Source: a virus
IMG/VR virus record: IMGVR_UViG_3300006071_000011
Span: 1-61,854 of that record
Reading direction: 5' to 3' (one strand)
Length of the DNA stretch: 61,854 nt
Position numbers and translations under genes: made by a program
The notes under the pieces: model-generated
What the model was told of the DNA's origin: nothing
The model's input: only the letters and a program-made list of their open reading frames with translations
Database searches by the model: none
In this document: positions 808 to 58,215 of the stretch, piece by piece
Position numbering within the stretch: position 1 is the first letter of the stretch
How the letters are laid out: each line of letters begins with the position of its first letter

Positions 808-899
808 AGGTTCCGTAGACCATCGTGGTGTTTCGGCGCCACAGATGGAAGAGTTCGAGAACCAAGTAGAATAAACTTGCCAAAAAATCTCAAATATGT

Positions 900-907
900 T
901 ATAAATA
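900..907 (+). promoter_or_regulatory. T4-type late promoter (TATAAATA) upstream of tmRNA
   Basis: An exact TATAAATA, the T4 late -10 element, sits in the non-coding gap just before the tmRNA. Transcription would start about 10-13 bases downstream, at the expected start of the acceptor half. It suggests the tmRNA is made late, when virion proteins are being translated. Confidence 0.65.
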
Positions 908-914
908 TACTTGC

Positions 915-1153
915 TTAGGTCGTTGAGAACGGTAGAATAAGCAGGCAGGACCTGGGAGCGTTACCCAGCCGGTCCACCAAAGGACATTAAGGTGTCTTTT
1001 GGGGGCCGGAAGTAGGATCGACTGATGTGGTAAAGGCTGAAGGAGACCAAAAGCAATCGTAAATGCTAACGATAATTCAGCATATCAGGATCTTGCTCTA
1101 GCAGCATAATCCTACGGGCCGCCGGCGGCCTCGGAACAGAATGCCGGCACCTC
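915..1153 (+). ncRNA. ssrA: Circularly permuted two-piece tmRNA
   Basis: The acceptor half comes first and the coding half second, as in alphaproteobacterial split tmRNAs. The 3' acceptor strand CCGGTCC (969-975) is followed by encoded ACCA (976-979). It pairs with GGGCCGG (1003-1009) over 7 bp, with a G-U at the third pair, the alanyl-tRNA synthetase identity element. A T-arm of CTGGG/CCCAG with a 7-base loop precedes it (952-968). Between the halves, 977-1002 forms a 10-bp hairpin that processing would remove. After the acceptor strand comes GGATCGAC, like the conserved tmRNA D-region, then a tag frame ending at 1109 and a GC-rich palindrome (about 1119-1132) that could form a pseudoknot with GCCGGC downstream. 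Outer ends are approximate. The normal role is rescue of stalled ribosomes with SmpB. Confidence 0.93.
1065..1109 (+). other. tmRNA proteolysis-tag reading frame
   Basis: The frame from the likely resume codon GCT to TAA encodes ANDNSAYQDLALAA. The ANDN start is typical of alphaproteobacterial tags. The C-terminal ALAA is the kind of signal recognised by ClpXP/ClpA. The exact resume codon is inferred; an upstream in-frame GCA (1053-1055) would add AIVN. Confidence 0.85.
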
Positions 1154-1168
1154 ACAAAGGACACTAAG

Positions 1169-1300
1169 ATGAAAACAAAAAAGTTGATTTTAAAGTTCTA
1201 TCGTGCTATACTAGACAAAGATGCCAAGAAGGAGAGGAAGTTTTGGTTTAAACTCCTCAAGAAATCTTTCAAAGGTAAAAACACCCACGTAATCCGATAG
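1169..1300 (+). CDS. Small basic protein, 43 aa
   Basis: An ATG lies 8 bases after AAAGGA (1156-1161) and opens a 43-residue frame. It is rich in Lys and Arg with aromatic residues (KFYRAIL, RKFWFKLLKK). It lies directly after the tmRNA and ends 13 bases before the oxygenase gene, so it probably shares their transcript. No family is recognised. The charge suggests nucleic-acid or membrane contact, which is only inference. The good ribosome site and tight spacing argue that it is real. Confidence 0.55.
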   Translation: MKTKKLILKFYRAILDKDAKKERKFWFKLLKKSFKGKNTHVIR

Positions 1301-43415: not shown

Positions 43416-46400
43416 ATGCTATTACATGAACTATTATTAAAATCAAGTTCTGGAGGTTCTACTAAAAAAAATCTATTTACCTGGGGTCGTGGAACATCAG
43501 GAACTATTGGTTATGGAACTACTACTAGCTATTCATCGCCTGTTTTAATTGGAACAAGTAGTTGGTCTGTAGTCAGTGCAGGATTAAACGTTACAGCGGC
43601 AATTAGATCTGATGGTGCTTTGTTCACATGGGGTGCCACTAACAATTACACTTTAGGTCAAGGTTTACTTTTTATAGCAACAAAGGCTCCTTCTCCTGGT
43701 TCCACAAGCTGGACAGCTGTTTCTATCGGTTCATCAACTGGTTATGGAATAAAAACTGACGGAACACTGTGGGCATGGGGTTTTAATACTTATTACCAAT
43801 TTGGTAATGGAAACACTACATCAACTTCATCTCCAATTCAAATTGGAGTCGGAATGAGTTTTAAAGCTGTTTCCGGAGGTGACTCTCATGCCTGTGCAAT
43901 TGCATCAGATAATACTTTGTGGGGATGTGGTAATAACAATTCCGGTCAGTTAGGTTTAAATGCTGGTTACACACCAACACAGATAGGAAATTTAAGTTGG
44001 AAATCAGTATCTTCTGGCACTAGTCATACAATGGCAATAAGATCAGATGGTTCTTTATGGGGATGGGGTATTGGTAGTAGCGGTCAGTTAGGTGTTAATA
44101 ACACTTTAACGTATGCATCCCCTATTCAAATTGGATCAAGTTCATGGAAAGCTGTTTCTTGTGGAACATTACAAACATACGCAATTAGATCAGACGGAAC
44201 ACTGTGGGCATGGGGTAATAATAACGTATGGCAGCTTGGTAATGGTGTTAATACTAACTATTCATCTCCAGTCCAGATTGGAACAAGTAGTTGGTCGAGT
44301 ATAGCAGCCGCTAGTTCAACAACCGTCGGTATAACAACAACTGGTGCTTTATTTTTTTGGGGTTATACTACTTATACACCAACAAATTCATCATACGTTA
44401 CATTACCAACTCATGTTGGAACAAGTAGTTGGGTAATGGCAAGTGTTGGGGATAATACTGGTGGAACTTATGGGCATGCGATCAGGGTAGACGGTGCTTT
44501 ATTTGCTTGGGGAAGCCAAAGTTTTTATCCTACTCTCGGAACAAATAATACTACTTCATATTCATCGCCTGTTCAGGTTGGAACAAGTTCATGGAAAGCT
44601 ATAATGTCTGGTTTTAATAGTGCAATAGCATTAAGAGCAGATAATACAGTATGGACTTGGGGTTATGGTTCAGCTGGTGAATTAGGTAATAATAACACAA
44701 CGAATCAATCATCACCTGTTCAGGTTGGAGCAAGTAGCTGGGTGGCTATCGGATTAAGTAATACCGGAAGTAATTATGATAACGCACTTTTTGCGGTGAG
44801 GGCTGGTGATTTTAGTTTATGGGGTTGGGGTGCCAACATTTCTTATACAGTTGGTACTGGAACTAGTACTAATCAATCCTCTCCTGTACAAATTTCAACA
44901 GGAAATTTCAGTCAGCCAGCAGGTGTATATGTTATAGGAGATTTTAGAAATAGTGCTATTGCAGGAGCAATAAATTCTACTGGATCTTTATTTACATGGG
45001 GAGTTGGCGCTCAATTGGGATCTCCAGCAGGAACTACAATTCAAACATTATCTCAAATTGGTTTCAGTAGTTGGACAGCTGTCTCTTGTGGTTATTCATA
45101 TACAATGGCTATCAGATCTGATGGTGGTTTGTTTGCCACTGGAGCACAAGCAACATACGGTCAGTTAGGTACCAATGATTTGGTTAATAGGGGATCATTT
45201 TCGCAAATTGGAACAAGTTCATGGAAAGCTATTTCAGCCAGTTTTTGGGTTTCTTCAGCTATCAGATCTGATGGTGCTTTATTTACTTGGGGATACGGCG
45301 GTACTGGAACTTTAGGTACTAATAGCATAACGACTCAATCATCACCTGTTCAAATCGGAACAAGTAGTTGGACATCTGTGAGTGTTTCTTTATCAACAGT
45401 GATGGCCATCAGATCTGATGGTGCTTTGTTTGCGTGGGGAACCAATACATACGGTCAGTTAGGTACTAATAATGCTACTACATATTCATCACCTGTTCAA
45501 ATCGGAACAAGTTCGTGGAAAGCTGTATCAGTTCTTGGTGGTTATTCTAGTTTACTTCTAAGAACTGATGGATTGTTGTTTCAAACTTGCGCTATCAACT
45601 CAGCGGTAGGCGGTGGTGCTGGTATTTTTTCTATATCTTCTCCAGTACAAATAGGAACCTCCAGCTGGTCTGTGCTTCCAACTGGAGGTGGTTCAGGTAA
45701 TACTGATAATTTTTGTGGTGGTGGAGTTATTGATTCTTTAGGAGCTCTTTATACTTGGGGTGGTTATGGTGGTAATACGATTACAGTTGGAAGAATTATA
45801 CCTACTACAATAAACTCTCCAGTCCAGATTGGAACAAGTTCATGGAAAGCTGTTTCTATAGGACATAGCACAGCTTTAGCAATAAGTTCGGATAATACTT
45901 TATGGTCTTGGGGTTATACTACTCTTATATCAGGACAGGCATTTTCGGACGCTCCATACCAAATATCAAAAAGTAGTTGGACTTCTGTTGCGGCTGGTGC
46001 TTCTCATGTTGGTGCAATTAGATCAGATGGTGGTCTTTTTATGTGGGGATCCAACACAAACGGTTCGCTAGGATTAAACAGTACTTTAGTAGTTCAAACT
46101 CCAGTTCAAGTAGGAACAAATAGTTGGAAAGTTTTAGGATTAAATGGTAATAATGTTAGCGGAACAACAGTAGCAATTAGAGCAGATGGGACATTATGGG
46201 CATGGGGATATAATGTTTTTTATCAACTTGGTAATGGAAACACTACAGCAACTTCATCTCCAGTCCAGATTGGAACAAGTTCATGGAATGCTGTGTCATT
46301 AGGCCATGCGCATGTGCTTGGCGTAACTACTGATGGTTCTTTATGGGCATGGGGTACAAGTACTTATGGTGCTCTAGCAACTGATGTTACTGGATCTTTG

Positions 46401-47705
46401 GCTCAACTTGGAACTAACAGTTGGTCAGCAATTAGTTTAGGACTATATGCAAATTTTGCTATCAGAAACGATGGTGCTTTGTTTGGATGGGGTAACGGAG
46501 CATACGGGCAATTAGGACAGAATAACAATTTATCATATTATTCTCCTGTTCAAGTAGGTACTAGTAGTTGGAAATCAGTATCCGTTGGTTATTGTCATGT
46601 TTTAGCAATAAGAGCGGATAATACTTTATGGTCTTGGGGTTACAATGCAGGTGGAGAACTTGGTCAGAATATAGCACAATATACATATGTATCTTCTCCT
46701 GTCCAAGTAGGTACTAGTAGTTGGACTTCAATATCCACAGGTGTTAATCAATCCGCAGGAATTAGAAGCGGAGGAAGCCTATTTTCATGGGGTTACAATG
46801 CATCTGGAGCATTGGGTGTTAATACTGCAACTGCATTTTATTCATCACCTGTTCAGGTTGGAACTAGTTCTTGGACATTAGTGTCTGTTGGAAGTAGTTG
46901 TGCGCTTGCAATTAGAGCAGACGGGACATTATGGGGATGGGGTTATAATTTTTATAACACTCTAGGAACCAACAATGCTACTACATATTCATCACCTGTT
47001 CAAATTGGAACAAGTTCATGGAAAGCTGTTTCTTGTGGTGGCTTCGGTTCTTTAGGAATTAAATTAGATGGTACATTATGGGGATGGGGATATCAAGCTT
47101 ACTGGGGATATGGATATTTAGGTACTGGTAATCTCACCTCCTATTCATCACCTGTTCAAATTGGAACAAGTTCGTGGACTGCTGTTTGTATCCAAAACGG
47201 CAGTAGTGGAGATTATTCTAGTTGGATGTTAAGAATAGATGGTGTTTTATTTGGTACTGGTCTTAATGCATCTAGTGGATCTAATTATTTGGGAGGAACC
47301 GATACATCAACTTTTATTCTCAGTTCTCCAACACAAATTGGTACAGGGTTTAGCTTTATACCAAACTGCAACGGTGGTTCAACTGCTGCCGCAATTGGTA
47401 ACAATGGCGCACTATATACTGGTGGAGCAGCTTACACTGGAAATCCAGCAAGAGGAAGTACCATAACATCACCTACAAAAATAGGAAATAGTAGTTGGAC
47501 AGCTGTTTATGCTAGTCAATATTCTAGCTATGGTATAAGATCCGACAGTGCTTTATTTGTATGGGGTTATAATAGTTCTGGTTATGGAGAATTAGGTAAT
47601 GGAACTATTTCAGGAAACGTCTTTTCTCCTACGCAATTGGGAAGCAGTAGTTGGGCGGCTGTATCCGCTAGTTTCAGTTTTACAGCAGTTGGATTGACAA
47701 GATAA
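43416..47705 (+). CDS. Giant RCC1-repeat beta-propeller adhesin, 28 repeats
   Basis: 1429 residues. After ~20 residues the protein consists of RCC1/alpha-tubulin-suppressor repeats: L(W/F)xWGxNxxGQLGxxxxxxxSSPVQIGTSSWKAVSxGxxHxxAIRSDG. By eye I count 28 repeats of 45-58 residues, enough for four seven-bladed propellers. Most variation is at the loop before SSPVQ and after the VSxG strand. No signal peptide or catalytic motif is seen. It follows a fibre chaperone gene and ends the fibre block, so it is probably a virion adhesin. Alternatives (a host-directed effector) cannot be excluded. RCC1 family call strong. Confidence 0.88.
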   Translation: MLLHELLLKSSSGGSTKKNLFTWGRGTSGTIGYGTTTSYSSPVLIGTSSWSVVSAGLNVTAAIRSDGALFTWGATNNYTLGQGLLFIATKAPSPGSTSWTAVSIGSSTGYGIKTDGTLWAWGFNTYYQFGNGNTTSTSSPIQIGVGMSFKAVSGGDSHACAIASDNTLWGCGNNNSGQLGLNAGYTPTQIGNLSWKSVSSGTSHTMAIRSDGSLWGWGIGSSGQLGVNNTLTYASPIQIGSSSWKAVSCGTLQTYAIRSDGTLWAWGNNNVWQLGNGVNTNYSSPVQIGTSSWSSIAAASSTTVGITTTGALFFWGYTTYTPTNSSYVTLPTHVGTSSWVMASVGDNTGGTYGHAIRVDGALFAWGSQSFYPTLGTNNTTSYSSPVQVGTSSWKAIMSGFNSAIALRADNTVWTWGYGSAGELGNNNTTNQSSPVQVGASSWVAIGLSNTGSNYDNALFAVRAGDFSLWGWGANISYTVGTGTSTNQSSPVQISTGNFSQPAGVYVIGDFRNSAIAGAINSTGSLFTWGVGAQLGSPAGTTIQTLSQIGFSSWTAVSCGYSYTMAIRSDGGLFATGAQATYGQLGTNDLVNRGSFSQIGTSSWKAISASFWVSSAIRSDGALFTWGYGGTGTLGTNSITTQSSPVQIGTSSWTSVSVSLSTVMAIRSDGALFAWGTNTYGQLGTNNATTYSSPVQIGTSSWKAVSVLGGYSSLLLRTDGLLFQTCAINSAVGGGAGIFSISSPVQIGTSSWSVLPTGGGSGNTDNFCGGGVIDSLGALYTWGGYGGNTITVGRIIPTTINSPVQIGTSSWKAVSIGHSTALAISSDNTLWSWGYTTLISGQAFSDAPYQISKSSWTSVAAGASHVGAIRSDGGLFMWGSNTNGSLGLNSTLVVQTPVQVGTNSWKVLGLNGNNVSGTTVAIRADGTLWAWGYNVFYQLGNGNTTATSSPVQIGTSSWNAVSLGHAHVLGVTTDGSLWAWGTSTYGALATDVTGSLAQLGTNSWSAISLGLYANFAIRNDGALFGWGNGAYGQLGQNNNLSYYSPVQVGTSSWKSVSVGYCHVLAIRADNTLWSWGYNAGGELGQNIAQYTYVSSPVQVGTSSWTSISTGVNQSAGIRSGGSLFSWGYNASGALGVNTATAFYSSPVQVGTSSWTLVSVGSSCALAIRADGTLWGWGYNFYNTLGTNNATTYSSPVQIGTSSWKAVSCGGFGSLGIKLDGTLWGWGYQAYWGYGYLGTGNLTSYSSPVQIGTSSWTAVCIQNGSSGDYSSWMLRIDGVLFGTGLNASSGSNYLGGTDTSTFILSSPTQIGTGFSFIPNCNGGSTAAAIGNNGALYTGGAAYTGNPARGSTITSPTKIGNSSWTAVYASQYSSYGIRSDSALFVWGYNSSGYGELGNGTISGNVFSPTQLGSSSWAAVSASFSFTAVGLTR

Positions 47706-47759: not shown

Positions 47760-49478
47760 ATGCATGATATTGATTTGCAACTTGAGCATATGTTAAAGGG
47801 TGAGTTTGAAGAAGGTTGGAAAATATCTGAAAAATTACAGGCTTTGGGTAAAGATAATATTCTTGACCCGCAAGGAAATAAAAATCCTGAGATGTGGCTT
47901 AGACATAATTTCAACAGAGGTTGGTTTCTTTTACAGCAAGGAAATTATCGTGAAGGTTCTCAACTTTTAGAATCTGGTAGATTCATTAACGTCTACGGTA
48001 GTGGTCATCTACAAACTTCTGCACCAATATACAATCCAGAAGAACATGATATTAAAGGAAAATCTATTATCATCTCTCTTGAAGGTGGTTATGGCGATGA
48101 AATTATTCATTCTCGTTTTGCACAAACTGCAAAAAAATTAGGAGCCAATAAGGTTTATTTAGCAGCTGCTCCTGAAATTGCTTCAATTTTCACAAGAGTT
48201 CCTGGCGTAGATGGTGTTATTCAGAGAGACCAATCACATACGGTCCAACATGATTACTGGATTCCGGGTTTCAGTGCTGGTTGGGTTTTAGGTCATACAT
48301 ATGATAATTTACCAAATGAACCATATCTATCTCCGATACCTTCTTCTTATGAAGTTTGGTCTTCCATTATTAAAAATAATGGAAAGAAAAAAGTTGGAAT
48401 TAGATGGTCTGGTAATCCAAAATTTGAACATCAACAGTTTCGTAGATTTCCTCCAGAGTTTATGATAAACCTTGCTAAACATGAAGATTTGGATATCTAT
48501 AGCCTACAGAGAGATCATAATCTACAAATTCTTCCTGAAAATATAACTGATCTTCAATATCTATTAATTTCATGGGAAGACACTCTTTCTGCATTATCAC
48601 AATTGGATCTTATTATAACCTCTTGCACAAGTATCGCTCATGCGGCAGCTGCTCTTGGTAAAGAGACTTGGGTATTCACACCAACGCTCCCTTATCACAC
48701 ATGGACTCTTGGTGCTCCAGAATCAAAAACTTCACCATTTTATAAATCTGTTAGGGTTTATAGGCAAACTAATCCAACAAAATGGAATGATGTGTTTCAG
48801 GAAATGTATCAAGATCTTGAAAATGAGTTTAATTTAAAACACATCGACCTACCAAGCTGTGATAAAGAATGTAAAAAGATAAACCTTGGTTGTGGTTTTG
48901 ATAAAGTGAAAGGTTATGATAATGTTGATTATTCTCCAATAGTAAGACCAGATAGAATTGTGGATCTCAATTCTAAAAATTGGGACATTCCTGATGGTGA
49001 ATACGATCACATTGTCGCTAAAGATATAATTGAACATCTTGATGATACAGTTAATGTCATTAAGGAAATGTATAGAATCAGTAAACATGGTGCAATTTGG
49101 GAAATTCAAGTTCCACATCATCGTAGTGATTTGGCTTTGATTGATCCGACACATAAAAGATTAATTCATCCAGACACATTTAAAATGTTTGATATGAAAT
49201 TTTGTATGGATAAATTCTCTAAAGCTCCTTCAGAAGCAATTCTATGTCTTCAAAATAATATAGATATAGAGGTTTGTTTAGTTGAATATATCTACAATAC
49301 GAATTGGTTAGAAATGTTTGAAAAAAACAAAGCTACACAAGAGGATGTTTCTTTCTCTCTTAATAATTATAATAATGTTGCTGCTTTGACTAAAATATTG
49401 GTTCAGGTTCACAAACCGCCGAGATATAGTCAAGTAGATATTGATAGAGCGATTGATGAATACTTTTCAAATAAATAA
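47760..49478 (+). CDS. TPR-linked GT9-type glycosyltransferase fused to a SAM methyltransferase
   Basis: 572 residues in three parts. Residues ~1-90 look like TPR helices (FEEGWKISEKLQ, GWFLLQQGNYREGSQLLESGR). Residues ~95-355 resemble a GT-B glycosyltransferase of the heptosyltransferase (GT9) type: IISLEGGYGDEIIHSRF, KVGIRWSGNPKFEHQQFRRF, and ITSCTSIAHAAAALGKETWVF, the nucleotide-sugar site. Residues ~375-500 are a class I methyltransferase: INLGCGFDKVKGYDNVD, then YDHIVAKDIIEHLDD. It may transfer a sugar and methylate the product. It neighbours ADP-heptose-type genes, so a heptose donor is plausible but not shown. Confidence 0.78.
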   Translation: MHDIDLQLEHMLKGEFEEGWKISEKLQALGKDNILDPQGNKNPEMWLRHNFNRGWFLLQQGNYREGSQLLESGRFINVYGSGHLQTSAPIYNPEEHDIKGKSIIISLEGGYGDEIIHSRFAQTAKKLGANKVYLAAAPEIASIFTRVPGVDGVIQRDQSHTVQHDYWIPGFSAGWVLGHTYDNLPNEPYLSPIPSSYEVWSSIIKNNGKKKVGIRWSGNPKFEHQQFRRFPPEFMINLAKHEDLDIYSLQRDHNLQILPENITDLQYLLISWEDTLSALSQLDLIITSCTSIAHAAAALGKETWVFTPTLPYHTWTLGAPESKTSPFYKSVRVYRQTNPTKWNDVFQEMYQDLENEFNLKHIDLPSCDKECKKINLGCGFDKVKGYDNVDYSPIVRPDRIVDLNSKNWDIPDGEYDHIVAKDIIEHLDDTVNVIKEMYRISKHGAIWEIQVPHHRSDLALIDPTHKRLIHPDTFKMFDMKFCMDKFSKAPSEAILCLQNNIDIEVCLVEYIYNTNWLEMFEKNKATQEDVSFSLNNYNNVAALTKILVQVHKPPRYSQVDIDRAIDEYFSNK

Positions 49479-50667
49479 ATCTGTTGAGGCTTCCGAATCA
49501 TTATCAATAGAATATTATAATAAAAAAATGTTTCGGGAGTCTATTAATCAGAATCTACTAACATTAGATTTATTAGAATATAGACATCCTGATGTTCTTA
49601 AAAATTCAGCAATTTGTCATTACAATCTTTGTGAAATTGACAAATCTTTAGAACTATTTCAAGAATACATGGATATAACTAAATCTAAAGATAAAACGGA
49701 TATAAGGCAATACGCTCAATATCTAACTAGACTTGGTAGATATGACGAAGGTTACGAGTATATCAAAAACAATCAAATAGAATGTGAGGATAAACACTTA
49801 GATATAGGATGGTTTTTACACAGAAAGGGTAAATTTAAAGAAGCGTTTATTGAAACGGAGATTGGAAGAAATGGTGCGTTTTGGACTAATGAAAAACTTC
49901 CTCCTCCAAATGTAGATAGATGGTTTGGTTATCAAAATATTAAAGGATCTAAAATATGCGTCATAGGAGAAGCTGGGCTTGGCGACGAAATGATATTCAG
50001 TAGATGGATTCCTATGTTAAAAGACATGGGTGCTTTTGTATATTACTACACTGATAATAGTTTAAAGAATGTTATATCAAGAAACTTTAAAGTTTTTCCA
50101 GTAGATCCAACAATCAAATATGATTATTGGGTACCTTCTATGAGTTTACCATTTAATTTGAAAGTAGAAAAACCTGGTAATGAAAAATATTTAGAACCTA
50201 ATCCAGTTTATCTAGCAAAGTGGAAACAAAAACTTAAAATGTATGACAATTTAATTGCTTTAAATTGGACGGGTGATAAAGAACACTCAGAAAATGATCT
50301 GAGAACAATACCAATTGAATACCTTATTGATAAGATTAAGCACCAAGGAACACTAATTTCTGTTTGTATGGGAGCAGAAACATGTCCAGAAGGCGTAATT
50401 GATTTAACAAAAGATATAAAAGATTGGGATGATACGCTTGCTATTCTTAGCTTGTGTAAAATGTGTTATACCAGTAGTTCAAGCGTTTCGGTCGCTGCTG
50501 GCGCATTAGGTATTAAAACATATCTTTATGATATTGTGGTTGGTTATTTTACTTGGTGTGCTGCCGAAAACGGAGGTAAATCAGATTGGTTTCCTGATGT
50601 TACTGTTTGGCGTCAACAGAAGATGGGTGATTGGATATCTGTTATTGACAAGAGTTTAAATTATTAA
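49456..50667 (+). CDS. TPR-linked GT9-type glycosyltransferase
   Basis: 403 residues from the ATG at 49456, overlapping the preceding gene by 23 bases. The N-terminal ~150 residues are TPR-like (ESINQNLLTLDLLEYRHPDVLKNSA...). VIGEAGLGDEMIFSRWIPML, LIALNWTGDKEHSENDLRTIP and YTSSSSVSVAAGALGIKTYL match the same GT-B pattern as the first gene, without the methyltransferase. The pair looks like a duplication. The 3' end overlaps the convergent FkbM-like gene by 26 bases. Probably acts on the same glycan or protein target. Confidence 0.75.
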   Translation: MNTFQINKSVEASESLSIEYYNKKMFRESINQNLLTLDLLEYRHPDVLKNSAICHYNLCEIDKSLELFQEYMDITKSKDKTDIRQYAQYLTRLGRYDEGYEYIKNNQIECEDKHLDIGWFLHRKGKFKEAFIETEIGRNGAFWTNEKLPPPNVDRWFGYQNIKGSKICVIGEAGLGDEMIFSRWIPMLKDMGAFVYYYTDNSLKNVISRNFKVFPVDPTIKYDYWVPSMSLPFNLKVEKPGNEKYLEPNPVYLAKWKQKLKMYDNLIALNWTGDKEHSENDLRTIPIEYLIDKIKHQGTLISVCMGAETCPEGVIDLTKDIKDWDDTLAILSLCKMCYTSSSSVSVAAGALGIKTYLYDIVVGYFTWCAAENGGKSDWFPDVTVWRQQKMGDWISVIDKSLNY

Positions 50668-51478
50668 GCAACAATTCTACAGTCCTAACAGAACTCTTAT
50701 GACCATACTTTTTAGTAATATAATATCTAGGCTCAACCCAAATATCATTGATTGATTTTGGAATATCACTAAAAAATTCTTTATATTTGTTTTTAATAAA
50801 GAAAGCATTTGCTCCTGTAAAACTATTACAACATGCAAGAAAATAATTATGTTTTTCAAACAATTTAACATATGACATAAGAGAAGCACCAAAATAATCA
50901 TCATATTCCCATATTAGATTTTCATGATATTTAACTTTCCATTCAATGGGTGGTATAAATTTAGCGTTATATTCAACTACGAATACTTTAGGAGATACTC
51001 CAGATTGCAATAATCTCTCAATTAAATAATAATCATTACCTTCAAAATCAAAAGAAATAAAATCTGTTTCTTCTTTATTAATATATTTCAAACACTGTAA
51101 GTATGTTTCTAATACGTTATTTAATGTTATATGACGTTTAAAAAATGAAAATTTTGGATTTGCAGATTGTTCAATTTTAGGTAATATGTTTCCAGCGTCA
51201 ACCCAAAACCCTGACCAACCTAATCCAGCTAACAATAATGTATTACATTCTAAACCTGATCCTACTCCAAATTCAGCAAAAACTCCATTATCAACTCCTA
51301 TACGTTTCATAATCTCTTGTGTAATACCATCTTCGTCTGACTGACTGAAAGCCCTACGACCATAATGATTTAAAGGATTCTTAGATGTATTGGTTCTTTC
51401 ATATAACTTTAAGTCTCTTAAATCACTAACCATGTCAAACATATGACTTAAATAATTTTGCATATTTTCATCTAACAT
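50642..51478 (-). CDS. FkbM-like SAM-dependent methyltransferase
   Basis: 278 residues. FSQSDEDGITQEIMKRIGVDNGVFAEFGVGSG...NTLLLAGLGWSGFWVD is the FkbM-family pattern (SQ-GED-I, EFG-x-x-G, GW-x-G). DFISFDFEGNDYYLIERL is the following acidic block. These enzymes usually O-methylate sugars in surface glycans. It is the last gene of the seven-gene minus-strand operon; its start overlaps the preceding stop by 7 bases (ATGTTAG). Confidence 0.75.
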   Translation of the reverse strand: MLDENMQNYLSHMFDMVSDLRDLKLYERTNTSKNPLNHYGRRAFSQSDEDGITQEIMKRIGVDNGVFAEFGVGSGLECNTLLLAGLGWSGFWVDAGNILPKIEQSANPKFSFFKRHITLNNVLETYLQCLKYINKEETDFISFDFEGNDYYLIERLLQSGVSPKVFVVEYNAKFIPPIEWKVKYHENLIWEYDDYFGASLMSYVKLFEKHNYFLACCNSFTGANAFFIKNKYKEFFSDIPKSINDIWVEPRYYITKKYGHKSSVRTVELLLNNLNSCQ

Positions 51479-52152
51479 GTATATTCATCTTTCTCTCTTG
51501 GAACTATAGTAGAATCTTCATCGTTAAATTTATTTTCAAAAGCATATAATCCTTGATGAGTTATGTTATATAAATCTGCTTTCATAAATCTATCTGCAAT
51601 TGTCCATATACCACGCTTAAAAACATCTGATAACATATTCTTAGCAACTTGTGGATCTATACAATATGCATGTCCTTTATATATATAAAGATTATTCATT
51701 CCACCAGATCCATATATTGGAATATCTTCTATATTAGATCCTTTTTTTGCCCATATTTCACAACCAAGATATACAATAGAATTATAACTAGTTTTATTTT
51801 CAAACTTTTTTACCATTATAGCATCATGTTCAAGTATAACTATTGGTTGGTCTATCTCGACACATCTAGCCCATAAACTTAAATGACTAAGAAAACAACT
51901 AAGTTCACTTTTTGTCATATGATGATCTTGTATTTTCACCATTTTAAAAATGGGATTATTCTTAGAGTGTTCTGGTATTATTATTTCATCACCAGTTCCA
52001 TCAAATGCGTCCCATACTTGATATTGCATACCAACATTTTTACACGATTCTTGACATCTTTTTGAATATTTTTCGGACATATTATTACCCTTTATTGTAA
52101 TAATGTATGCTTTTTCAACATCTGTCCTATGCGAATAATATAAATTTAACAT
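51472..52152 (-). CDS. Glycosyltransferase family 25-like (LPS-type)
   Basis: 226 residues. KAYIITIKGN near the start, MTKSELSCFLSHLSLWARCVE and PIVILEHDAIM are the GT25 signature: start strand, SLS-H block and ExDA motif (here EHDA). GT25 enzymes add galactose or related sugars to LPS or, in animals, to collagen hydroxylysine. Start overlaps the upstream stop (ATGTTAA). It acts in the same operon as HldE/HldD. Confidence 0.82.
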   Translation of the reverse strand: MLNLYYSHRTDVEKAYIITIKGNNMSEKYSKRCQESCKNVGMQYQVWDAFDGTGDEIIIPEHSKNNPIFKMVKIQDHHMTKSELSCFLSHLSLWARCVEIDQPIVILEHDAIMVKKFENKTSYNSIVYLGCEIWAKKGSNIEDIPIYGSGGMNNLYIYKGHAYCIDPQVAKNMLSDVFKRGIWTIADRFMKADLYNITHQGLYAFENKFNDEDSTIVPREKDEYTC

Positions 52153-52757
52153 CTTTTCTTTCCAATAACAGTTAAAATATTTGGTATTCCGCCTTTGTTT
52201 GACCTAACTTGATCTTCAATTGAAGCAGAAACAATCAAATCAAACCCACCTCTATTCAATAACTCAGTAACACCTCTAACACCAAAATGATGGAAATGTT
52301 CATTAGGCTTGCGGTGTTTCCATATTTCAAAATTATCAAAATGACACCAAGGAATCGAAATGCAGATATACTTACAATTTAGTTCTTTTAATACCTCTTC
52401 AACATTTTCTTGTGGAAAGTGTTCAATACAATCAAAGAACGTAACAAGGTCAACAGGTATATTTCTATTTTCAGTAAAAGTTATTCCGTCTGATAAAGAA
52501 TATCCTGATATATCATTACCAAAACATTTGTATCCTTCACGATTACATACTTTGAGAAAGTTACCGTCGCCATATCCAACATCAAGAACCGAATAAAACT
52601 TGGCATACTTTTGACAAAAGTTGAGTCTAATATATGAGAGAGTATCATCATACTTAGTGTATGGTTTTACATAGTTCTCATCATATTTCATAAGATCACT
52701 AGTGACATTAGACTGCCATAACCAGCCAGGTGCAATCTCTTTATACTCCTCTTTCAT
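52146..52757 (-). CDS. Class I SAM-dependent methyltransferase
   Basis: 203 residues from the second ATG (52757), which is better spaced from AGAGGA than the ATG at 52763. VLDVGYGDGNFLKVC is motif I, GNDISGY motif II, and LVTFFDCIEHFPQENVEEV the usual E-H block. The end (GVRGVTELLNRGGFDLI) is typical of sugar or small-molecule methyltransferases. It overlaps the 3' end of the HldD-like gene. Confidence 0.8.
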   Translation of the reverse strand: MKEEYKEIAPGWLWQSNVTSDLMKYDENYVKPYTKYDDTLSYIRLNFCQKYAKFYSVLDVGYGDGNFLKVCNREGYKCFGNDISGYSLSDGITFTENRNIPVDLVTFFDCIEHFPQENVEEVLKELNCKYICISIPWCHFDNFEIWKHRKPNEHFHHFGVRGVTELLNRGGFDLIVSASIEDQVRSNKGGIPNILTVIGKKRC

Positions 52758-53532
52758 TAACATATTCCTCTATTGATGTGAATGTATGATCAAAGTGATT
52801 TAATGAACAAGTGAAGTATTGATACTTGTCTTCAAGGTGTTTTGGAAATGGAACATACTCTAACTTGGCATTATATCTGTCTGCTATGATTTCAGCCACT
52901 CTTTCAAACGACCTTGCTACTCCAGTTCCTAGATCATATATACCACTTGGTTTATCATACAGCATACAATTTATAACATCTTCAACCCAAATAAAGTCTC
53001 TCATATAGGCAACCGAGTTTTCAAATAGTTTAATCGTTCCTGTTTCTTTTGCCTGCTTGATGAATGTATGTATCGGACTGGCCTGGCCACCTTTATGGTC
53101 TTCATGCTTACCATATACATTATAGAAACGATAACCTTGTATAGATTCAAACTTGTATAAATTATCCATTACCCAACGATCAATAGTAGCCTTAGACATA
53201 GCATAGAAGTTTAGTGGATTAATCTCTCTACGATAGTTAGTGTTTCCATACACGGACGCGGACGAGGCATACTTTACTGGTATCTTATATTGAATAGCAA
53301 GTTCAAATAGATTTATGGTATATTCTATGTTATAAGTATGGATTTTATTTAAATCGGTACAAGTAGTATCAGAGATGGCACCCATATGCCATATTTCTTC
53401 TATATCTTCCCAAGGTGTTAAATAAAGGTCTTTGAAGCAACTGTCAATATCAGAAAGGCAAAAGAGTTTATCATTTAATCTATTAACAAGGTTTTGACCG
53501 ATAAATCCTTTATGACCAGTTATCAATATCAT
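52741..53532 (-). CDS. hldD: ADP-L-glycero-D-manno-heptose 6-epimerase-like (HldD), NAD-dependent
   Basis: 263 residues (E. coli HldD: 310). The Rossmann motif GHKGFIGQ opens the protein. HMGAISDTTCTDLNKIHTYN, YASSASVYGN, YAMSK (YxxxK catalytic pair), RFYNVYGKHEDHKGGQASPI and LFENSVAYMRDFIWVEDV match E. coli HldD block by block. The best fit is the 6-epimerase that finishes ADP-heptose; a related sugar epimerase is the alternative. Overlaps the HAD gene by ATGA. It lies in the same operon as HldE. Confidence 0.83.
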   Translation of the reverse strand: MILITGHKGFIGQNLVNRLNDKLFCLSDIDSCFKDLYLTPWEDIEEIWHMGAISDTTCTDLNKIHTYNIEYTINLFELAIQYKIPVKYASSASVYGNTNYRREINPLNFYAMSKATIDRWVMDNLYKFESIQGYRFYNVYGKHEDHKGGQASPIHTFIKQAKETGTIKLFENSVAYMRDFIWVEDVINCMLYDKPSGIYDLGTGVARSFERVAEIIADRYNAKLEYVPFPKHLEDKYQYFTCSLNHFDHTFTSIEEYVNERGV

Positions 53533-53831
53533 AAATTAACTCCAAAGAAATCTCTATCATTAAATGCCTTGTCATCTATCCAGTAATCATATGCTGGTTT
53601 ATCACATCTTAGTGAGGTGTATTTGCATCCCCATTCTTTTAATTGTTTTTTGGTTAGTTCTGATAAATCTCTCCTTGAGTTACCACCTCTGGCCGTCCAG
53701 TAATGTATCTCATGCCCTTTATCATATAGGTGATTGATATAATCTATGCGGTCTAGATAAGGAGTTGCCTTCTCATAATCACCATTAGTATTGGTACAGA
53801 TTGTTCCGTCGATATCCATTATATACTTCAT
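53529..53831 (-). CDS. Small HAD-like phosphatase
   Basis: 100 residues. MDIDGTICTN is the DxDGT nucleophile motif, YWTARGG motif II, and WIDDKAFND the Mg-binding Asp pair. Such tiny HADs occur in polysaccharide gene clusters. In this setting it could remove the C7 phosphate between the two HldE steps, the GmhB job, although it is shorter than GmhB; that role is inference. Both ends overlap neighbours by ATGA, and AGGAG precedes the start. Confidence 0.78.
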   Translation of the reverse strand: MKYIMDIDGTICTNTNGDYEKATPYLDRIDYINHLYDKGHEIHYWTARGGNSRRDLSELTKKQLKEWGCKYTSLRCDKPAYDYWIDDKAFNDRDFFGVNL

Positions 53832-54178
53832 TGACCGTCTCCTGGCATAACTCTATAACTGTCATTGTCAAAGTGTGTTGTAGATACCTCGATTATAGTT
53901 GAGTTGTCCTCTAAAGCCTCAATCTGATGCGGTTGCCCAGGTTCATTGACCCATGTATCACCTTCTCTAAGGATAGTATTATGTATCTTTGCATCATTGG
54001 TTTCAATCCAGTGTATCTTGAATATACCTTTCTGGACATAAAAGGTCTCATGTTTCTTCATATGGAAATGCATAGAACCTTTAGAACCGGATTTATCATG
54101 TATAAGAAGTTTACCACAATACTTATCATTATTGGCAAAGATTATCTCTCTACCCCATTTCTTCTCAACAATCTCCAT
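53828..54178 (-). CDS. Cupin protein (mannose-6-phosphate isomerase-like)
   Basis: 116 residues. VEKKWGREIIFANND, GSMHFHMKKHETFYVQKG and VNEPGQPHQIEAL are the cupin motifs (HxH...E and a distal H) of the sugar-phosphate isomerase/sugar-binding type. It may isomerise or hold a sugar phosphate for the pathway. It overlaps the HldE gene by 14 bases and the HAD gene by 4. Confidence 0.8.
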   Translation of the reverse strand: MEIVEKKWGREIIFANNDKYCGKLLIHDKSGSKGSMHFHMKKHETFYVQKGIFKIHWIETNDAKIHNTILREGDTWVNEPGQPHQIEALEDNSTIIEVSTTHFDNDSYRVMPGDGQ

Positions 54179-55334
54179 TCATATACTCCAATGTTTTAGT
54201 AGTAGAATATCCATCAACAAAAGGTAATATAACGACCTCAGCAAGATCATGCCCGACCACTTCTTCTTTAGTCTTATAATCACCACCTTTTGTTATAATG
54301 TCAGGCTTCAAATCTTTAATTATTTCATATGGTGTGTCACCATTAAAGATAATAACCTCATCAACACAATCAAGAGCCTCTAATACTCTCTTACGATCTT
54401 CCTGCTTATTGTGTGGTCTGACAGTGCCTTTTAGTCTAGCAACTGATTCATCTGAGTTTAAAGCTACAATTAACTTAGTTCCTAATTTTTTAGACTTTTG
54501 TAGATATTCAATGTGGCCACGGTGTAGAATATCAAAGCAACCGTTGGTGAATACTATCTTACCTTCAATCTCTCTTTTATCATCTTCGGTAATTGTATAG
54601 GTACCAAACTTGGTTACGGACTTAGCCGCATACTTGTTCGCAATATCACAGGCCTGATATATGTCTTTACCTTTTGCTAGGTAGTATGTCATAGCAGCAA
54701 TGAACACATCACCGGCGCCTGTCACATCAGATACTTGTAATCCTAGACCTGGAATTGTTGTATCACCATTTTCATTAATAATTCTAACACCTTTGCCACC
54801 CAAGGTTATCACAAAAGTTCCTATATCATAATACTTTAAAGCACCTTTTCCCTGTGGGCAGAACTGATAATATTCTTTCTCATTCATCTTGACAATATCA
54901 GCACCTTCATAATGACTGATATGCCTTTTAGGATCAACAATGACGATCTTACCATCTTGCTTCAGTTTATCAATAACTTCAGAACTATATGTCAAAATAC
55001 CCTTACCATAGTCGGAAAGGATGACATACTTGGTTTCTTCGGTAAATTCGGCAAGACATGGATCAACGGTGCTGGTCTTATCGGCATCCACACGGAACAT
55101 TATGTGGCCGTCACAGACATATCGTTTTTTGATAGAATAGTTTATTTTGTCACAGTGGTAATCAACAGAAGCACCAAGGGCCATTAGATTGTTATTGACA
55201 TTGGAAGCACCGCCAGAACGACTTTCTTCTCTCTCTATGTCAAAGATAGGAATAGGAGACTCCGGTGAAAACCTAGTCATTTTCCCATATATATAAATAT
55301 CGGTAATATGATCACCTATAAGACCAATTTTCAT
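54165..55334 (-). CDS. hldE: Bifunctional heptose-7-phosphate kinase/heptose-1-phosphate adenylyltransferase (HldE)
   Basis: 389 residues. A PfkB-type kinase fills residues ~1-255: GDHITDIYIYGKMTRFSPESP, RSGGASNVNNNL, and DVTGAGDVF with the GAGD catalytic motif. A nucleotidyltransferase follows: VFTNGCFDILHRGHIEYLQ with the HxGH motif, then LNSDESVARLKG. This is the HldE order. Start 55334 is chosen because GGAG lies 6-7 bases upstream; the ATG at 55346 lacks a site. It would give ADP-D-glycero-D-manno-heptose with a GmhB-like phosphatase. First gene of the minus operon. No T4 late promoter was found upstream, so it may be expressed early. Confidence 0.92.
   Translation of the reverse strand: MKIGLIGDHITDIYIYGKMTRFSPESPIPIFDIEREESRSGGASNVNNNLMALGASVDYHCDKINYSIKKRYVCDGHIMFRVDADKTSTVDPCLAEFTEETKYVILSDYGKGILTYSSEVIDKLKQDGKIVIVDPKRHISHYEGADIVKMNEKEYYQFCPQGKGALKYYDIGTFVITLGGKGVRIINENGDTTIPGLGLQVSDVTGAGDVFIAAMTYYLAKGKDIYQACDIANKYAAKSVTKFGTYTITEDDKREIEGKIVFTNGCFDILHRGHIEYLQKSKKLGTKLIVALNSDESVARLKGTVRPHNKQEDRKRVLEALDCVDEVIIFNGDTPYEIIKDLKPDIITKGGDYKTKEEVVGHDLAEVVILPFVDGYSTTKTLEYMNGDC
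55292..55299 (+). promoter_or_regulatory. Late promoter (TATAAATA) reading into the collagen-like gene
   Basis: An exact plus-strand TATAAATA lies inside the 5' end of the divergent hldE gene, about 90 bases before the 55390 start. A second candidate, ACTAAATA (55351-55358), sits 31 bases before that start and matches the NCTAAATA variant. Confidence 0.55.
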
Positions 55335-55389
55335 AGCAAACTCCATAGTAACTAAATAGTATATAGTATATGCTCATAAGGTGTAATTA

Positions 55390-57138
55390 ATGTTCTTGTT
55401 TCCTATTACCAGACCAACAAAAATTATTAATATTAGTTCCGCGACTAATAATGTTAATCTCTACAATCAATCAGGTAGCCCATCCTACCCTGGTAATATA
55501 TTTGTTTTTATCAATGCTAACATAGGAAGTACCTCAACTTCAACACCTGCTTTACAGACAGGTTCCAGTTGGAGGCCAGGTACTCTAATTTATATTAAAA
55601 ATTCAGCAACCATAGCAGGTGCAGCTGGTACTACAGGTGCTACAGGCACACCAGGTGCTCCAGGATCTGTAGGTTCTACAGGAAATCCAGGTGCTACAGG
55701 TAGTTCAGGATCTGTAGGTACACCAGGTGGTACAGGGTCACACGGTCAACCAGGTGGAGCAGGTCGTCACGGTAACCCAGGTGGTACAGGAGCACACGGT
55801 CAACCAGGATACACAGGAGCACACGGTCAACCAGGTGGTACAGGTGCATTTGGTGCTGGTGGTGGTGGAGGTCACGGACCCGGATGGTTCGGTGGAGGCC
55901 ACCATGGTGGAGGCGGTACTCCAGGAGGCACAGGAGGTACAGGTGGTCACGGTCAACCAGGTGGTTATGGTCAACCAGGTGGCCGAGGTGGTTGTGGTCA
56001 ACCAGGAGGTGCAGGCCAACCAGGAGGTTCAGGCGGCCTAGGTGGTTGTGGTCAACCGGGAGGTTCAGGTGTCCGAGGTGGATGTGGTCAACCAGGAGGT
56101 GCAGGAGGCACCGGGCAACCTGGTGGTACAGGAGGCACCGGGCAACCTGGTGGTGTATCACTTAAAGCATGTGCCGTATATGGTGTTAGTATAATTCTCA
56201 ACAATACATCAACAATAAGTGGAGGATCATCTGGTCCAGGAGGTTCTGGAGGATCATCTGGTCCTGGTGGATCTGGAGGACCAGGTGGAGCTGCGGGTCC
56301 GGGAGGTCCAGGTGGTTCAGGTGGAAATGCCGGACCTGGTGGCGTAGGCGGTTATGCTGGATCAGGTGGTTCAGGTGGAAATGCAGGACCAGGTGGTTCT
56401 GGAGGAAGTGCCGGACCAGGTGGTTCAGGTGGAAATTCTGGACCAGGAGGACCTGGAGGCGGCGGCGGCGGAGCTTCCGGTCATAGAGGCGGCGGTGGAG
56501 GTGGTGCAGGTATACCTCCAGGCCCAGGCGGTAGTGCTTGTGGTGGTCCTCATGGACCTCCCGGTCATTCTCATCAAGGTGGTGGATGGGGTCAGCACCA
56601 ACCAGCAGCACATTATAGCGCAAATCATCAAGGTGCTGGCCAAGTAAATTGTGCCCATTGTGGATATAATGGGCACCACGCTTCAGGATGTTATCACGGA
56701 GCAAGTCATCAACCTGCTAACCATCACGGATGCAGCCATCATTTTGGTAGATCCGGTCCAAATGGTGGTGGTGGAGGCGGTGACTTAAATCAACCAGGAT
56801 ATCCAGGAGGCGGTGGTGGTGGAGGACCAGCTGGTCATTCTGGTCAACCTGGTCCAGCCGGTTCAGCCGGATCAACAGGTGGGGCCGGGCATTCAGGTCA
56901 ACCAGGAAATGCTGGATCCCCAGGATCAGCAGGAAATTCTGGGCCATCAGGTCAACCAGGAAATGCCGGTTCACCAGGAGCAACAGGGCATCCAGGAAAT
57001 GCCGGTTCTCAAGGATCACCAGGTTCACCAGGATCTTCGGGAGCATCAGGTTCACCAGGTACTCAAGGATCCGCAATATGTGGTAACTCAAATATTAAGT
57101 ATATAAATATGGGTACAATCAACGGACCTAAGGTCTAA
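55390..57138 (+). CDS. Glycine-rich collagen-like adhesin with a zinc-knuckle-like motif
   Basis: 582 residues. The N-terminal ~75 (IINISSATNNVNLYNQSGSPS...TLIYIKNSATIAG) is a beta domain of the type that precedes polyglycine regions in phage tail adhesins. From ~77 the sequence is (G-X-Y)n with Pro mostly just before Gly (GTPGAPG, GHGQPGGAG, GNPG), then Gly-rich loops, and ends with another collagen-like tract and a beta tail (NIKYINMGTING). Residues 421-434 read CAHCGYNGHHASGC inside a His-rich stretch. It could form collagen triple helices and/or a polyglycine-II sandwich like T4-family gp38 adhesins. Likely receptor-binding. Confidence 0.78.
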   Translation: MFLFPITRPTKIINISSATNNVNLYNQSGSPSYPGNIFVFINANIGSTSTSTPALQTGSSWRPGTLIYIKNSATIAGAAGTTGATGTPGAPGSVGSTGNPGATGSSGSVGTPGGTGSHGQPGGAGRHGNPGGTGAHGQPGYTGAHGQPGGTGAFGAGGGGGHGPGWFGGGHHGGGGTPGGTGGTGGHGQPGGYGQPGGRGGCGQPGGAGQPGGSGGLGGCGQPGGSGVRGGCGQPGGAGGTGQPGGTGGTGQPGGVSLKACAVYGVSIILNNTSTISGGSSGPGGSGGSSGPGGSGGPGGAAGPGGPGGSGGNAGPGGVGGYAGSGGSGGNAGPGGSGGSAGPGGSGGNSGPGGPGGGGGGASGHRGGGGGGAGIPPGPGGSACGGPHGPPGHSHQGGGWGQHQPAAHYSANHQGAGQVNCAHCGYNGHHASGCYHGASHQPANHHGCSHHFGRSGPNGGGGGGDLNQPGYPGGGGGGGPAGHSGQPGPAGSAGSTGGAGHSGQPGNAGSPGSAGNSGPSGQPGNAGSPGATGHPGNAGSQGSPGSPGSSGASGSPGTQGSAICGNSNIKYINMGTINGPKV

Positions 57139-57148
57139 AGGGGATAAA

Positions 57149-57610
57149 ATGAACGTATTTTTTAGAATTATAGATGTTTTCCCAGAGGAAAATACATTTA
57201 CTGTTAGATATTGGAGTGATAAGGTTTCTGAAAATACACTATCAACCTCCATTGATGTTCGTGGGGATATTATGTTAACCAGTAATGGTTATCCTATTCA
57301 TTGTTCTACCGACACAAATTTAACAATATATGATACTGCAAATACTTCATCTAATGATATTTTAAATCTTATACAATCAGCAACTCCTTTTTGGGCTATT
57401 ACACCAAAAGTTAATACAGTTGTTAATTTTACAAATGTTAATACATTTTTATACAATGTAAATAGTTATTCAGCAAATGATGCTAACAATCTAATACTTA
57501 AAACACAACTTGATGAAATTAATGATGTGGCAAATAAATGTATGCCAAATGTGGTAAACAACGTAATAAATTACATGATATCAAACAAAATGGTGGTGGC
57601 CAATACATAA
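57149..57610 (+). CDS. Conserved hypothetical protein between the adhesin and oxygenase
   Basis: 153 residues. FFRIIDVFPEENTFTVRYWSDKVSENTL... followed by a Thr/Asn-rich beta region and a helical end (TQLDEINDVANKCMPNVVNNV). Proteins starting with such an IIDV...TVRYWSD stretch occur in the fibre region of T4-like phages, but I know no function. AAAGGGG precedes the start; the stop overlaps the next start (TAATG), so it is coupled to the oxygenase. Confidence 0.6.
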   Translation: MNVFFRIIDVFPEENTFTVRYWSDKVSENTLSTSIDVRGDIMLTSNGYPIHCSTDTNLTIYDTANTSSNDILNLIQSATPFWAITPKVNTVVNFTNVNTFLYNVNSYSANDANNLILKTQLDEINDVANKCMPNVVNNVINYMISNKMVVANT

Positions 57611-58215
57611 TGATTTCAAATGATCCTGTGAATTTTAGAAAAAATATACCTAGTTATATTTTGTGGGAAAATTTATTTGTTGAAAATGAATTGAATGACA
57701 TTGAAAAATTATGTCAAAAAGAAGAATTACATAGATCCACAACAGTCGGTAAAGGTGAAGATTGTGAACAGCATAGAAAATCTAAGGTAAAATTTATCAG
57801 CAGAAATGAAGAGAATTATTGGATTTTTGATAAATTTAACGGTGTGATTGATAGAATAAATTCAACTTATTTTGGATTTGACCTTTATGGTTATAAAGAT
57901 TTTCAATACACTGTTTATGATTCTTTGAATAAAGGAATGTATGACTGGCATATGGATACGGTATTAGGTGATAATGATTGTACCGATTCTGTCAGAAAAT
58001 TAACTTTGGTTATGTTACTATCAGAACCACAAGTTCATTTCTCAGGGGGTGAATTTCAAATAAACCTTGGAATGGAAGAAGATGCAAGAACACCTGAAAT
58101 GACTAGAGGTAAGATTATAGCATTTCCATCTTTTCTGATCCATAGAGTGAAACCGGTACACTTAGGTATTCGTAAGTCAATTGTTATATGGGTAGAAGGT
58201 CCTAAGTTCAGGTAA
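57610..58215 (+). CDS. Prolyl-4-hydroxylase/PKHD-type 2OG-Fe(II) oxygenase
   Basis: 201 residues from the ATG overlapping the preceding stop; the frame is open further upstream only as a shadow of the previous gene. MYDWHMDTV supplies the Fe-binding HxD, FPSFLIHRVKPV the distal His, and HLGIRKSIVIWVEGP the Arg that binds 2-oxoglutarate. VMLLSEPQVHFSGGEFQI is typical of the PKHD/P4H branch. The gene is next to a collagen-like protein rich in X-Pro-Gly, the classic P4H target. Family strong; target inferred. Confidence 0.85.
   Translation: MISNDPVNFRKNIPSYILWENLFVENELNDIEKLCQKEELHRSTTVGKGEDCEQHRKSKVKFISRNEENYWIFDKFNGVIDRINSTYFGFDLYGYKDFQYTVYDSLNKGMYDWHMDTVLGDNDCTDSVRKLTLVMLLSEPQVHFSGGEFQINLGMEEDARTPEMTRGKIIAFPSFLIHRVKPVHLGIRKSIVIWVEGPKFR

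Follow-up and report, generated by a model that had tools for sequence, protein, structure and literature searches.

A cupin as probable isomerase in the ADP-heptose gene cassette of a T4-like phage, and a glycosyltransferase gene tied to an RCC1-repeat fibre gene

Introduction

How could a phage that carries genes for the synthesis of ADP-heptose, with no recognisable GmhA isomerase among them, complete the pathway, and where would the sugar go? The question is raised by a region (47760-55346) of a virus fragment of 61,854 bases, the whole of which is called the window here. This region, with fibre genes on one side and gp13 on the other, encodes a fused HldE, HldD, a HAD phosphatase, a cupin, a GT25 glycosyltransferase and two TPR-GT9-like proteins (ORF1 and ORF2). 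By its recognised genes (gp13, gp14, gp32, the tail sheath stabiliser, baseplate wedge and hub genes and a helicase loader) the fragment comes from a T4-like myovirus, probably of aquatic source; its baseplate wedge gp6 is closest to those of Pelagibacter phage HTVC008M and Methylophilales phages, and its gp32 to those of a marine virus and Prochlorococcus phages. At 873-1200 (+) lies a permuted tmRNA gene of the alphaproteobacterial type (RF01849 91 bits, RF04321 86 bits; ARAGORN tag ANDNSAYQDLALAA); its DNA matched none of the known phage records, and it suggests that the host is an alphaproteobacterium or that the gene was acquired from such a bacterium.

Phage synthesis of ADP-heptose is not in itself a new idea. 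Heptose genes have been described in cyanophage SynMITS9220M01 (PMC7378029), rfaE and glycosyltransferases are part of the pelagimyophage host recognition cassette (PMC7029224), and Tang et al. (Science 2024), as cited in PMC11461863, reported functional viral heptose enzymes, the phosphatase being said there to be absent in viruses. What is new here is the cupin as the probable isomerase and the tie between ORF1 and an RCC1-repeat fibre gene.

Results

Long open frames were confirmed for every gene that a preliminary description of this DNA had named, each where it had been placed. HldE (54165-55346, minus strand, 393 amino acids) resembles fused heptose-7-phosphate kinase/heptose-1-phosphate adenylyltransferases (PRK11316, 8.9e-87), its start in relatives corresponding to the internal ATG at 55334 which the preliminary description had chosen. 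Both of the domains claimed for it are there (PfkB 1e-21, CTP_transf_like 3e-18), as a GAGD kinase fused to an HxGH adenylyltransferase, and GAGD (210-213) and H275, G277 and H278 of HRGH are invariant across nine relatives. Beyond residue 65 the kinase lacks about 27 residues that bacterial HldA has (residues 65 and 71 of the query lie opposite chain residues 114 and 147 of HldA, 4e84), a shortening common to most of its phage relatives. The HldD-like ADP-heptose 6-epimerase (52741-53532, minus strand; TIGR02197, 1.3e-63) is likewise present as described and keeps its active-site Ser, Tyr and Lys and a K178-type lysine, aligned with S116, Y140, K144 and K178 of E. coli HldD, which we take to be the functional residues of that enzyme. 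Both proteins score below the NCBIfam equivalog cut-offs (291.7 bits against 521 bits for HldE with PRK11316, 215.1 against 274.6 bits for HldD with TIGR02197), as is expected for divergent phage proteins.

The small HAD phosphatase (53529-53831, minus strand, 100 amino acids), our candidate heptose-1,7-bisphosphate phosphatase, had by implication been taken for GmhB. The gene is there, and on alignment its catalytic residues are intact, as they are in HldE and HldD, with D6/D8, T46, K78 and D86/D87 invariant in 12 relatives. By family it is not GmhB, which is a longer protein with a DRDGT motif; it is weakly EcbF/BcbF-like, with a 'capsule biosynthesis protein' (9iqw) as its best PDB match. 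In two IMG/VR relatives (L002 and L003) a GmhB-like HAD occupies its position, while among the other HldE loci 20 have the small HAD and 10 have neither within the DNA examined; no locus has both. The exchange speaks for the small HAD as bisphosphate phosphatase; a protein outside the GmhB family thus probably does GmhB's job.

The preliminary description had held that only GmhA was absent, and proposed that it be sought elsewhere in the genome. For the SIS-type enzyme (PF13580) the absence holds: none was found in the 56 related phage records searched, which covered the window, eight records with the cassette (five of them complete cyanophage genomes, the other three fragments) and the 47 records with ORF1, and a direct search of 89 phage loci was also negative. 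For the pathway step it does not hold, as the cupin (53828-54178, minus strand), assigned by Pfam and proposed from its genomic association as a sedoheptulose-7-phosphate isomerase, is a probable replacement. It is present in 32/32 phage loci with HldE and 0/57 without, a co-occurrence that by itself says only that the cupin belongs to the cassette, since the cassette moves as one unit. Among 50,697 phage records it was found in 35, all of marine picocyanophages or marine viruses. Caulobacter phage Cr30, which has a SIS GmhA, is not one of them; its SIS GmhA, heptose kinase, glycosyltransferase and epimerase genes (L090, 2793-6532) make up a phage heptose cassette of another kind.

The predicted structure of the cupin (pLDDT 94.8) has D-lyxose isomerase and archaeal phosphomannose isomerase among its many cupin neighbours, other best fold matches being quercetinase, KdgF, CapF and oxalate decarboxylase, and the residues invariant among phage cupins include H37, H39, E44, H84, K6, K23, K42 and R109. 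Cupins carry out the conversion of fructose 6-phosphate to mannose 6-phosphate, and that of sedoheptulose 7-phosphate to manno-heptose 7-phosphate is its seven-carbon counterpart, so the chemistry fits. A search of the open-access literature gave nothing relevant on a cupin performing the GmhA step.

Cellular relatives of the cupin give evidence on its role that is independent of the phage cassette. The best 80 cupin loci from cellular assemblies included 32 with an HldE-type kinase, 34 with a nucleotidyltransferase, 28 with HldD, 19 with GmhB and one with a SIS GmhA within the DNA examined. The other 48 had no heptose kinase there, many of them being on short contigs; some of these kinase-less loci lie near other sugar genes, so that several functions may exist within the cupin family. 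Some of the 80 are misbinned viral contigs, probably among them one binned as Neomarinimicrobiota (L091, 4832-10967), in which phage-like structural genes accompany an HldE-HldD-cupin-GmhB cassette.

Heptose operons of DPANN archaea and Patescibacteria contain the same cupin: in one woesearchaeotal locus (L142) the genes form one tight cluster in the order cupin-HldD-HldA-GmhB-HldC, and at L149, L154 and L156 the kinase carries the cupin as its C-terminal domain. Among 29 genomes in which the cupin adjoins heptose genes, 20 had some PF13580 match and about 11 a full-length SIS protein, so that exclusion between cupin and SIS enzyme is a tendency and not a rule. Many of the matches were short ones in frames of about 600 amino acids; these were set aside, as they covered the last third of the profile only and probably belong to GlmS-type proteins.

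The phylum to which the L142 genome belongs was surveyed in 148 genomes; most are MAGs, and the set is not phylogenetically independent. At thresholds chosen after the tables had been seen (HldA kinase E<=1e-60, cupin E<=1e-20, SIS E<=1e-8), the kinase was found in 33 genomes, 9 with the cupin only, 17 with the SIS enzyme only, one with both and six with neither. With relatedness uncorrected, cupin and SIS GmhA were anti-correlated across these 33 (Fisher p=0.0015), and the cupin was found in 10 of them against 2 of the 115 others (p=4e-6). Gene fusions are evidence independent of these statistics: the cupin is fused to HldA (G099 and G110) exactly at the position where other genomes fuse SIS GmhA (G147 and G168), and the two-gene order [HldA-X][HldC-GmhB] is common to G168, where X is SIS, and G110, where X is the cupin. 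The fused and archaeal cupins also keep K6, W8, G9, E11, Y20, K23, H37, H39, K42, E44, H84, E97, S99, D106 and R109 of the phage proteins.

Of the two GT9-type genes in the preliminary description, neither matched the Pfam GT9 profile, but the predicted fold and a GxGD motif bear the assignment out for ORF1. This protein of 572 amino acids (47760-49478, plus strand) is predicted to join TPR-like helices, a GT9-like GT-B domain and a C-terminal methyltransferase; in a Foldseek search against the PDB its AlphaFold model (pLDDT 89.7) best matched the GT9 glycosyltransferase 3tov, with E. coli heptosyltransferase II (WaaF, 1psw) at rank 9, and its C-terminal domain matched methyltransferases. Relatives were collected from 80 viral loci (46 clusters at 90%), and in them GxGD is invariant and D113 is present in 46/46. 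ORF2 (49456-50667, plus strand; TPR_2 7.1e-4) is a TPR and GT9-like paralogue of the N-terminal part of ORF1, sharing 24-29% identity with ORF1 homologues and having E166, G168, G170 and D171 invariant; a search of viral contigs with ORF2 as query returned no loci.

Pfam also recognises the cupin and GT25 genes as they had been listed. The latter (51472-52152, minus strand; PF01755 2.9e-16, 60.4 bits against a cut-off of 24) accompanies ORF1 in 62 of the 80 loci; structure templates sought for it by sequence alone were mostly repeat-protein noise and were discarded. Two methyltransferases had been proposed, and one of them (52146-52763, minus strand; PF13489 3.7e-11) is confirmed as class I, whereas the other, a protein of 278 amino acids (50642-51478, minus strand), resembles a methyltransferase by eye only and had no match among Pfam, NCBIfam and PHROGs profiles.

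Upstream of ORF1 lies the proposed acceptor, an RCC1-repeat fibre protein of 1429 amino acids (43416-47705, plus strand; phrog_4219 9.9e-117), with 15.5% Ser, where nine other structural or fibre proteins compared from the window have 4-13%; GTSSW occurs in it 15 times. In 66 of the 73 loci that could be assessed, an RCC1-repeat gene ends upstream of ORF1 at a distance of no more than 700 nt. PHROGs files such fibres under 'regulator of chromosome condensation, DNA metabolism', which is probably a misannotation of tail fibres. A collagen-like Gly-X-Y protein (55390-57138, plus strand; 37% Gly, 14 GQP triplets) is a possible second acceptor, and a 2OG-Fe(II) oxygenase (57538-58215, plus strand; PF13640 8.3e-12) follows it. 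The N-terminal part of phrog_61 matches the GT25 gene and its C-terminal part the oxygenase, a pairing like that in lysyl hydroxylase/glycosyltransferase proteins; in the window the collagen-like gene stands between the two.

Discussion

That this phage makes and transfers its own activated heptose, as first proposed, fits the gene content, the conserved catalytic residues and the predicted folds, from which we infer the chemistry. The cupin would convert sedoheptulose 7-phosphate to manno-heptose 7-phosphate, the HldE kinase domain would form the 1,7-bisphosphate, the small HAD would remove the 7-phosphate, the HldE nucleotidyltransferase domain would give ADP-heptose and HldD would epimerise it; the TPR-GT9 proteins (ORF1 and ORF2), GT25 and the methyltransferases would then most likely attach the sugar to Ser/Thr of the RCC1 fibre and modify it. 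With the cupin as probable replacement for GmhA the pathway looks complete, and we consider it quite probable that the cupin does complete it. The whole scheme, an ADP-heptose pathway with transferases that modify Ser/Thr of the neighbouring fibre, we hold with slightly more belief than doubt. More tentative, and in our estimate a little short of an even chance, is the wider proposal that the cupin represents another class of sedoheptulose-7-phosphate isomerase, not homologous to SIS GmhA and found in T4-like phages, DPANN and Patescibacteria, whose product in the phage heptosylates its own RCC1 fibre.

It is unlikely that a SIS-type GmhA of the host starts the pathway and that the cupin acts otherwise, in epimerisation or ring opening of heptose or of a nucleotide-heptose. 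GmhA is common in Gram-negative hosts, which suits such a role, as does the presence of CapF and KdgF among the fold neighbours of the cupin. Cupin C3/C5 epimerases also take part in heptose modification in Campylobacter (PMC7949155). However, the cassette has no 4,6-dehydratase or keto-sugar maker, and the fusion of cupin to kinase at the SIS GmhA position, with the near absence of genomes holding both, speaks for the cupin as isomerase. That the enzymes use a sugar other than manno-heptose seems very improbable: HldE and HldD do fall below their equivalog cut-offs and the HldE kinase is shortened, yet against this stand the HldD-specific residues, the motif SPE(A/S)P of heptose kinases and the exchange with GmhB, as well as the reported activity of viral heptose enzymes (PMC11461863).

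As to the target, which the preliminary description had left between phage fibres and host LPS, the fibre is favoured, since ORF1 lies directly behind the Ser-rich RCC1 gene and has a heptosyltransferase-like fold. The addition of heptose to the LPS or O-chain of the host during infection, blocking superinfection, has been proposed for cyanophage and pelagimyophage LPS genes, and is how rfaE and the glycosyltransferases of the pelagimyophage cassette were interpreted in print (PMC7029224); it would suit GT9 and GT25, which are classic LPS families, and the carbamoyltransferases that also adjoin cyanophage cassettes; we think it unlikely for this locus, however, because ORF1 stays linked to the RCC1 fibre gene with or without HldE, because the TPR fusions in ORF1 and ORF2 suggest that the acceptor is a protein, and because the cassette is sited between fibre genes and gp13. 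Decoration of the fibre, which depends on ORF1 using heptose, we consider by itself reasonably likely. We infer that heptose is the ORF1 donor; a nucleotidyltransferase match of any kind was found in 25 of the 47 ORF1 records, and ORF1 was not found in the five complete cyanophage genomes that carry the cassette, so the link between cassette and ORF1 is loose, and ORF1 may use another donor, the heptose going elsewhere.

The cupin offers a concrete gene for a step that many phages, archaea and bacteria of candidate phyla had seemed to lack and, if its proposed role is true, SIS GmhA used as a marker under-counts heptose pathways. The association of a dedicated glycosyltransferase with a fibre gene that is widespread in phages provides a model of why phages have sugar-nucleotide genes.

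Comparison with known systems

The cassette is not unique to this phage, as marine cyanophages carry the same set. The cyanomyoviruses P-SSM2 (PSSM2_309-313), S-CAM1, S-SSM7, P-TIM68 and S-T4 likewise have HldE kinase and nucleotidyltransferase, the small HAD and the cupin, with HldD in four of the five, also in a fibre or sugar-gene region and in some cases adjoining gp13; they differ from the window phage in having kinase and nucleotidyltransferase split, not fused, and in lacking the TPR-GT9-MT gene. In cyanophage records (L004, 13113-13457 and 13438-13794, and equivalents in L005-L008) the HAD is annotated as 'phosphoheptose isomerase', and 'cysteine dioxygenase' is the name given to the cupin; both names are probably wrong, the cupin being the better isomerase candidate. 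In two relatives (L003, 12979-15649; L002, 9210-11857) a NodU-type carbamoyltransferase, possibly for carbamoylation of heptose, and a GT9-like gene stand beside the cassette, an arrangement not found in the window.

TibC heptosylates serines of a repeat adhesin (PMC4358343), and the TibC/AAH systems likewise set a GT-B heptosyltransferase beside a repeat-rich, Ser-bearing surface protein, with ADP-heptose as the donor. ORF1, unlike these, has TPR and methyltransferase fusions, and the four-cysteine iron motif of TibC (PMC4358343) is not conserved in it, C289 alone being invariant across 46 rows, so the parallel would be one of mode of action only and we do not class ORF1 with TibC/AAH.

Cupin phosphomannose isomerases and D-lyxose isomerases share with the window cupin the fold and a metal-ligand motif, and catalyse aldose-ketose isomerisation; the window cupin, at about 15-21% identity to them, stands apart in its heptose context. 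SIS-type GmhA (PF13580) and the cupin have unrelated folds, but they share the same position in the pathway, the same position of fusion to the kinase and, as we propose, the same reaction.
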